Of a stretch of 17,472 bases of DNA, positions 15,538-17,472 are shown one piece after another. Both the position numbers and the translations under genes were made by a program. Position 1 is the first letter of the stretch. Each line of letters begins with the position of its first letter. The DNA is from Candidatus Aminicenantota bacterium (GTDB lineage Bacteria; Acidobacteriota; Aminicenantia; JAMOAD01), in contig JAMOUT010000003.1 of the NCBI GenBank assembly GCA_027061995.1, forward strand, positions 1-17,472. The letters run 5' to 3'. The notes under the pieces are model-generated. The model did not search any database. It saw only the letters and a list, made by a program, of their open reading frames with translations, and was not told where the DNA came from.

Positions 15538-16851
15538 CTATTTTTCATCAGCTCCCATATCATAACCTGAGCCTCTCGGCCTATTATCCCCTTCAAAATC
15601 ATAGGAAAGATTTGAATTCAACCCTTTGTCTATTGCGGGAGAATCTGTTTTCAGATGAAAATTATTCTTCAAAAAATCGATAAAAACTTGAGTAGGGGAT
15701 TTAATAAAAGAGTGTTTATCATAACCTTTATTTTGCCATTCAGGCAAGGTATATGAATTAACATCTTCATCCTCTATTAATATATTTGAATCAGCTCTAT
15801 AATATATATTATAATCTATTGTGATGTCGGAAAGGCAATTTGAGTTGTATTCGAATCCGCCGTGCTCTCCTCCGATTAATATATTATTTATGATATAACC
15901 TCCGGTTGAGCCGTTTTTCATGCTTATTGCCCACCTGCCATCGGTTTTCTTAAAATAGATGGTATTGTGCATTATTTTAAGGTTCTTGCACCCCCATTGA
16001 TTTCCCTGAGCATCATCCCATGCGGCTATACCTCCCGCATAATTATTATAAATAATATTATTTTGAATTTTAGAATCTCTGACGGAAGCAAGATTAATTG
16101 CCGCTCCTCCCCCTTTGCCGTTTTCATATAAAATATTACTGTCTATTGCGCAATCGGAAGATATTCCGTCGCCTCCCATCGAGGGATCAGCATTAATCTG
16201 AATTCCCGCCGCATAATTATTGTGAACAATATTATTTTTTATTATTGCATTATCAGAGCTGTTTGAGATATAGATTCCGTGTTCATCTCGGGAACCATAT
16301 ATATTACAGTTCGTAATTGTTGTTCTGTCGGAAAAATCGGTGAAAACACCCCATTTATAATTATTGTAAATAATGCAGTTGTCAATTGTTATATCATTTG
16401 AATAACTTAATCTTATCCCCGCTCTGTCAGCGTTTCTTATGGTAAGATTGGAAATATTGATATTTTTACAATGATCAAAAAAGATAAGATCACGATTAAT
16501 TCCGGTTCCGTCTATTATTGTCGAGTTTTTTGATTCACCCTCTATGTAAACAGGTTTATCATTATCCCCTTTGTTTTCTATCTCAATTTTTTCTTTATAT
16601 ATGCCTGAAAGAATTATAAGTTTTTCACCGTTTGAAATAGTGGTTATACCGTGAGTTATGGTTTTCCATGGTTTTTCCTTACTTCCGTCATTATTATCAT
16701 CCCCTTTAACGGAAACATAATAAACATTTGTAATCTCATCATCATTGGTATTTGAATCGGAATCGGAAGATTCCCTGTTGCAGAAGCTGGAAAATATTAT
16801 GAAAAGCAGAACAAAGGAAAAAAACAGAACTCTTTTAATATTTATATTCAT
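15538..16851 (-). CDS. right-handed parallel beta-helix protein, probable lipoprotein
   Basis: The 437-residue protein has a basic start, a hydrophobic segment at residues about 8-20 and Cys24 in FSSFCNRESS, followed by a Ser/Asp/Asn-rich linker. This looks like a lipoprotein signal, although Phe at -1 is unusual for a lipobox. The mature part begins YYVSVKGDDNNDGS, the DUF1565-type start of many surface beta-helix proteins, then shows about 8-10 Asn-rich coils of the form N-x-I-x-N-N-x-I-Y-N-N-Y. It ends with a DSPAIDKG and DFEGDNRPRG module common in such proteins. Relatives include pectate-lyase-like polysaccharide-binding or -cleaving proteins; no catalytic residues can be assigned. The start lacks a ribosome site but has a -10 box 6 nt upstream. 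The codon adaptation looks like that of its neighbours. Confidence 0.82.
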   Translation of the reverse strand: MNINIKRVLFFSFVLLFIIFSSFCNRESSDSDSNTNDDEITNVYYVSVKGDDNNDGSKEKPWKTITHGITTISNGEKLIILSGIYKEKIEIENKGDNDKPVYIEGESKNSTIIDGTGINRDLIFFDHCKNINISNLTIRNADRAGIRLSYSNDITIDNCIIYNNYKWGVFTDFSDRTTITNCNIYGSRDEHGIYISNSSDNAIIKNNIVHNNYAAGIQINADPSMGGDGISSDCAIDSNILYENGKGGGAAINLASVRDSKIQNNIIYNNYAGGIAAWDDAQGNQWGCKNLKIMHNTIYFKKTDGRWAISMKNGSTGGYIINNILIGGEHGGFEYNSNCLSDITIDYNIYYRADSNILIEDEDVNSYTLPEWQNKGYDKHSFIKSPTQVFIDFLKNNFHLKTDSPAIDKGLNSNLSYDFEGDNRPRGSGYDMGADEK

Positions 16852-16915: not shown

Positions 16916-16945
16916 TTGACAAAAAACGATTATATATGATATATT
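16916..16945 (+). promoter_or_regulatory. sigma-70-type promoter at the right edge
   Basis: A perfect TTGACA (16916-16921), an 18-nt spacer and TATATT (16940-16945, 5 of 6) point right. Transcription would start near 16952, up to 3 nt before an ATG at 16955. It is divergent to the beta-helix gene, whose start is 104 nt away. Confidence 0.6.
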
Positions 16946-16954
16946 GTTAAAACT

Positions 16955-17472
16955 ATGATTAAAGGCGGAAAAATTAAGATGGTAGGATTAAAGGGAACGA
17001 ACGGTTTTACTCTCTCTCTCTCTCTGTAAATATTGGATTTTCTATGGAATCGGAGAGCGGAAAATCAAATCCGTTTATATCAAGGATAGTGGAAATAGCT
17101 TAAAATTTAACAGAATAAAACAATCTTATTTAAAATTTTCCAACTCTTTTATTATTTCAAAAAACGATAGAATAATAAAATTCCAAGATATCAATAAGAA
17201 AAGCTTTAAAGCATCGAAACTTCCAAGCCTTCGAGCTTTTTCAAAATCATGCGAGATTTTGCAAGAGCTGAGGGTTTTGATTGCTTTATACCCGGAGAGT
17301 CGAAACAAAGTGGAGATCCCGCACCAATTTATAAATTGGGAACGAAACAATGAGAAAAAACTTGTGAGGGTAAATAAAAGAATAAGAAAAAAATTGGTGC
17401 AGCTGCCCGAAAATGTTTTTAGCTCCGATGCTTCGAGGCTCTATGCTTTAAGCTTTGATGGAGGAGGTGTAA
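16955..17472 (+). CDS. unidentified ORF interrupted at a (CT)8 repeat, possible phase-variable gene, cut by window edge
   Basis: From the ATG at 16955 the reading frame gives 24 codons (MIKGGKIKMVGLKGTNGF...) and stops at 17027-17029, immediately after a (CT)8 tract. A different frame is open from 16992 to the window end, 160 codons without a stop, which is unusual in DNA this AT-rich. Nine or six CT units would fuse the two into a protein of at least 173 residues. Seven units would give a 48-residue product ending at 17103. The downstream translation has segments such as LYALSFDGGG and a basic stretch KKLVRVNKRIRKKLVQLPE, but I recognise no family. The promoter with almost no leader supports expression. 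Alternatives are a decayed gene, a sequencing error in the repeat, or a non-coding repeat element that happens to be open. Confidence 0.35.
17010..17025. repeat. (CT)8 dinucleotide microsatellite
   Basis: Eight uninterrupted CT units lie 55 nt downstream of an ATG and 64 nt after a good -10 box. Such tracts slip during replication, and their length decides which downstream frame the upstream start codon reads. No other dinucleotide tract of this length was noticed in the window. Confidence 0.95.
17234..17269. repeat. 15-bp imperfect hairpin
   Basis: AGCTTTT-CAAAATC pairs with GATTTTG-CAAGAGCT around a 6-nt loop ATGCGA, with one mismatch (T41/C62 of 172xx) and one G-T pair. Its outer AGCT is also part of the long inverted repeat, so the two foldings exclude each other there. 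Confidence 0.6.
17321..17400. repeat. perfect 10-bp inverted repeat with an overlapping 16-bp palindrome
   Basis: GCACCAATTT (17321-17330) and AAATTGGTGC (17391-17400) are perfect inverted copies 60 nt apart. The left copy overlaps the perfect palindrome CCAATTTATAAATTGG (17324-17339), so the same bases can pair locally or at a distance. Confidence 0.7.

Follow-up and report, generated by a model that had tools for sequence, protein, structure and literature searches.

Near the right end of a Candidatus Aminicenantes contig, a promoter and an ATG are followed closely by eight CT dinucleotides, which raises the question of whether the tract switches a protein gene or belongs to some other kind of element. 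The stretch of DNA that we analysed (the window) comprises 17,472 nucleotides and is the entire contig C3 of a 104-contig, 2.36 Mb assembly. The original prediction was a phase-variable gene whose product changes with the number of CT units. The best-supported conclusion is that the feature is real and specific, but is better read as a repeated promoter-leader than as a phase-variable protein gene.

Promoter and leader core

The predicted TTGACA and TATATT boxes, ATG and (CT)8 tract were all located as claimed. TTGACA starts at 16916 and TATATT at 16940, forming a sigma-70-type promoter (16916 to 16945, forward strand) with an 18-nt spacer that agrees with the consensus at 11 of 12 positions, better than any other of the five promoter-like sites of the region; it is the start of the repeated module, and its -35 box is kept in six of seven copies. 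The ATG lies at 16955, and the tract begins 55 nt after it. The promoter is indeed near the ATG, but the proposed distance of about 3 nt matches the putative transcription start only, as 9 nt separate the end of the -10 box from the ATG. Judged by the distance to the -10 box, transcription probably starts at about the ATG, and the sequence from ATG to tract would therefore be the 5' end of the mRNA.

A search of the genome returned copies matching the end of the window on contigs C30, C59, C88, C28 and C90, and two more were found on contigs C30 and C25 of G003, a relative from the same family and a different genus, for a total of six copies of the leader module in the source genome (window included) and two in G003. 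Comparable copies have in common the promoter-like site, the ATG, 55 nearly identical nucleotides, the CT tract and then GTAAA. The conserved leader from ATG to tract (16955 to 17009, forward strand), which would read MIKGGKIKMVGLKGTNGF if translated, is near-identical in seven copies from two genera, and a promoter-like site, degenerate in C59, precedes each of the seven copies that have upstream sequence. Upstream of the -35 box the DNA is mostly unrelated between copies, with the exception of the C28 copy and the C30 copy of G003, which share ~120 nt although their neighbouring genes differ. Because of this lack of upstream relatedness, and because the C88 copy diverges ~20 nt 3' of the tract, the common core is taken to run from the promoter to ~17047, its strongly conserved part starting at the ATG. 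The conserved end of the core, GTAAATATTGSATTTWCTRTGG (17026 to 17047, forward strand), is the last part still common to the C88 copy, and the leader extension that follows (17048 to 17092, forward strand) is common to all copies but C88.

When public genomes were scanned for its pattern, the sequence turned up in a single Candidatus Aminicenantes assembly, JAMOVU01 (isolate PIR-30). The leader was not found in the other 296 genomes of the phylum sample, had no match in 38 of 40 near relatives when only strong matches were counted, and was absent from viral contigs in an exact pattern search. An Rfam search of the window returned no family match, and the leader folds no better than its shuffles (z -0.69 and 0.55), so that neither the known family nor the stable fold of a structured, riboswitch-like cis-regulatory RNA was found.

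Length and specificity of the CT tract

Direct counting gives eight CT units in the window (17010 to 17025, forward strand), 11 in C59, 10 in C88, 15 in C30, and 10 and 11 in the two copies of G003; the tracts of C28 and C90 have 10 units with one TT in each. A dinucleotide tract of varying length, as originally predicted, is thus borne out by lengths of 8, 10, 11 and 15 units between copies of the same sequence, these being paralogous copies and not the same locus, and the counts cover all three frame classes. Slippage would be the simplest cause of such differences, as seen here between different loci in consensus assemblies. All 20 overlapping hits to an uninterrupted (CT)7+ in the 2.36 Mb assembly lie within four module copies, and all nine hits in G003 lie inside its two copies; there were no hits in two other relatives and a single hit in one. 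Since every (CT)7+ of both genomes falls in the module, the tract is not a product of chance, and a short repeat in or beside a gene and longer than chance, as in contingency genes, is present here.

Coding potential on either side of the tract

Recomputing the frames gave the same products as originally reported, namely 24 aa with eight units, 48 aa with seven, 173 aa with nine and 171 aa with six, the last two still open where the window ends. That the frame continues beyond the window is explained by contig C3 ending inside repeat DNA; in C88 and C94 it shuts 13 codons after the window end, close to the early closure that the original prediction had itself named as evidence against it. None of the forward frames showed protein constraint over the 120 nt surrounding the tract, and across seven copies no frame on either side has the excess of synonymous changes that would support the proposed tract-switched protein. 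The leader before the tract has 7 nonsynonymous and 2 synonymous changes among copies, few enough to give low power; after the tract there are 9 and 1 in one frame and 7 and 3 in the long-product frame, again with low power, and the ratios on both sides are as expected without protein constraint. When set to nine units, the frame ends at 53 aa in five copies and at 41 aa in one, and the long joined frame is present only in the window copy (if it had nine units) and in C30. A conserved functional protein from one frame, the mark of a contingency gene, was thus not found, though weak contrary signals exist, as weighed below.

Searches of the short and long frames against Pfam, PHROGs and NCBIfam returned only chance-level matches, and the fused frame, for which a known family had been proposed as a test, had no convincing match in these databases. 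Coding on the reverse strand, where the tract reads as GA repeats and is crossed by frames of 69 to 85 aa in C28 and C90, was considered and rejected for lack of constraint. The string GFTLSLSL was likewise rejected as a type IV prepilin-like motif (GFTLIEL), since it lacks the Glu and is matched by no family model. The surface-type beta-helix gene named as the neighbour is present beside the window copy as a divergent parallel beta-helix (NosD-like) gene with a signal-like N-terminus (15538 to 16851, reverse strand), but most other copies adjoin other genes.

Dispersed repeats to the right of the leader

The long frame passes from a mosaic dispersed repeat (GCTTCGAGGCT-like; about 17199 to 17316, forward strand) through a dispersed element bounded by the terminal inverted repeats GCACCAATTT/AAATTGGTGC (17317 to 17403, forward strand; eight or more genomic copies) into a second mosaic stretch. 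Of 13 further places checked, 12 have these repeat pieces outside any frame of at least 90 aa, and the ~100 nt spanning the inverted-repeat element are missing from the C25 copy of the relative. What had been proposed as a tract-switched protein is a read-through of dispersed repeats that are intergenic elsewhere, and the long product is most likely non-coding repeat DNA read as protein.

The inverted-repeat element measures 80-90 nt and also occurs in C30, C54, C59, C76, C87, C88 and C93, mostly between genes and with no transposase seen; it looks like a small non-autonomous element. The mosaic repeat family also duplicates in tandem, as seen from a ~82-nt tandem copy (GCTTCGAGGCTC...) in C95 (L023 3316-3470).

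Genes downstream of the module

A complete downstream gene is available for two of the eight leader copies, the others ending at contig breaks, and both times it encodes a Cys-rich peptide. On C30 the order is leader, repeats, a 71-aa secreted Cys-rich peptide and a beta-propeller-like protein; on C88 it is leader, a 79-aa secreted Cys-rich peptide, a DUF5128-like beta-propeller and a thioredoxin-like protein, the last assigned by eye and supported by no model. The ATG of the C88 leader and that of the 79-aa peptide gene are 234 nt apart. The module is a repeated one with a tract of varying length, and peptide genes lie downstream of it in two copies. In C88 (L011 3290-3400), the leader contains ACCTCCGT, the exact complement of ACGGAGGT, which lies at the 79-aa gene's ribosome-binding site; the two are paired in the predicted fold, which as a whole is no better than shuffles.

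The last part of the window (17404 to 17472, forward strand) is the start of a module that precedes small peptide genes in C4, C30, C54, C88 and C94. In all five contigs that could be followed, the right-end sequence GCTTTAAGCTTTGATGGAGGAGGTGTAA leads into a 12-codon frame, MWLKTRLKFPMK, with a small peptide gene after it; the 12-codon frame has a strong ribosome-binding site in most of the five. The peptide genes in C4 and C54 lack a CT-bearing leader in the sequence examined, which speaks against linking leader and peptide gene as a cassette.

The 12-codon frame with its ribosome-binding site was located at L022:2104, L009:495, L011:350, L012 (reverse strand) and L015 (reverse strand), and in a version reading MWFKTRLKFPMK at L077 (reverse strand). 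It is thus near-identical at six places in two genera, five of which can be read onward and precede small peptide genes, and it is possibly a leader peptide. A match to the end module on C80 of the relative was discarded as a chance ribosome-binding-site match ahead of an unrelated 299-aa gene.

Over its final 83 nt the window is identical to the end of C94. By way of this overlap, which C88 shares, one likely continuation of the window is into a peptide gene and a radical SAM maturase gene. On C94, a 45-aa Cys-containing peptide gene (CEKCC motif) lies directly ahead of the gene for a maturase of the radical SAM/SPASM type, closest to CcpM and also akin to GG_samocin_CFB (L015, 985-2289, reverse strand), and a lipoprotein-like gene lies downstream of the two. 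Against the CcpM model TIGR04068 the maturase scores 228 bits (E 1.6e-67) where the family cut-off is 500, and it is a related non-member; the small Cys-containing peptide gene that accompanies the maturase in CcpM cassettes is in place. C94 possibly represents a modified-peptide cluster in Aminicenantes. Literature searches retrieved no paper linking Aminicenantes with phase variation and, for Aminicenantes with radical SAM and peptide, nothing beyond one passing co-mention.

Interpretation of the module

We give about an even chance to the explanation that the CT tract is part of a repeated promoter-leader module driving cassettes of a Cys-rich peptide and a six-bladed beta-propeller. The promoter would fire, the transcript would begin at about the ATG, and the conserved leader would form the 5' end of the mRNA, in which the tract presumably slips to different lengths in different copies. 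Any regulatory effect of the tract would probably be exerted on the leader, by moving the stop of its short reading frame or, alternatively, by altering the pairing or binding of the pyrimidine tract, and might change how much of the downstream peptide mRNA is made or translated. That the tract length of each copy sets the expression of its own cassette, giving differing peptide mixtures among the cells of one population, is an extension that we hold to be rather improbable.

The chief rival to the leader reading, somewhat unlikely in our estimate, is an inert dispersed repeat that bears a promoter and has spread by recombination or transposition along with the genome's other repeats, its CT tract drifting freely. 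The module does sit among other dispersed repeats, its copies adjoin unrelated genes, those in C28 and in C30 of the relative share their ~120 nt of upstream sequence despite different neighbours, neither protein nor structure constraint is apparent in it, and it was found in only two of the genomes searched; the similarity of the copies could come from recent copying and not from selection. An inert repeat would explain less well that the module begins at the promoter and keeps it while the surrounding DNA differs, that C88 retains a nearly unchanged sequence from ATG to tract between two diverged flanks, and that both readable copies lie ahead of Cys-rich peptide genes.

A phase-variable protein gene in which nine (or 6, 12 or 15) units join the ATG to the long frame is unlikely on present evidence, even though C30 has 15 units and a frame joined across the tract (its ATG lying beyond the contig start), the stop-free run of 149 codons was matched by one of 2000 simulated sequences, and C59, C88 and C25 of the relative have related open stretches of 115 to 128 codons. 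In the three copies closest to one another, synonymous changes in the long frame number 13 out of 28 where 6.6 are expected (P 0.0065, uncorrected for six frames), an excess that fades when all copies are considered (22 of 73 against 17.1 expected, P 0.12). The frame end is shifted between copies by a 2-nt difference, the joined frame shuts at 53 aa in five copies, the repeats traversed are the intergenic ones described above, some of their copies carry stops in the matching frame, and the long frame has no family match. Its codon score of 0.10 falls within the range of real genes and of wrong frames alike; the stop-free run, synonymous counts and codon score therefore still allow that the long frame may be real but fast-decaying. 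Very unlikely in our view is a short secreted or membrane peptide of ~56 aa (MIKGGKIMMVGLKGTNGFTLSFSLSVNIAFSVESESGK...), switched on at 7, 10 or 13 units, in which the tract encodes a hydrophobic Leu-Ser stretch. Four copies (C28, C90, C88 and C30 of the relative) have 10 units and thus the ~56-aa frame, five copies yield 56 aa at 10 units, and a CT tract in the part coding for a signal peptide has a precedent in Helicobacter pylori oipA (PMC10564699); yet the post-tract changes in this frame are 9 nonsynonymous and 1 synonymous, and at 10 units it ends at 38 aa in C88 and at 50 aa in the window copy, with differing sequences.

Should the tract tune expression, repeat-length control would be extended to secreted peptide cassettes and to a phylum that has received very little study, and, if the peptide-mixture reading is true, the tuning would act via the leader and not via a coding frame. 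Should it not, the locus is a warning that an open frame past a slippery tract can stem from dispersed non-coding repeats.

Comparison with known systems

The cassettes associated with CcpM (TIGR04068), GG_samocin_CFB (TIGR04148) and DUF5128 resemble C94 in its combination of peptide, maturase and lipoprotein-like genes, whereas the scores obtained here lie below the curated cut-offs, the peptides have no family match, and the window is linked to C94 by the 83-nt overlap that is also present in C88. Helicobacter pylori oipA and sabA likewise carry (CT)n shortly after the start codon, with the length setting the frame; in oipA the tract lies in the signal-peptide coding part and switches the frame (PMC10564699). 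In oipA and sabA one frame encodes a conserved outer membrane protein, whereas here no post-tract frame is conserved as protein and the tract lies within a repeated promoter-leader. In Helicobacter pylori tlpB, a repeat in the mRNA leader is read by the small RNA RepG (PMC8295292), the likeness being a repeat of variable length that lies in the leader of an mRNA, ahead of the controlled genes; the repeat itself is another one, and the present leader recurs at several loci. By analogy with these systems, the tract could in principle act by frame switching, as in oipA, or through reading of the leader by a small RNA, as in tlpB.
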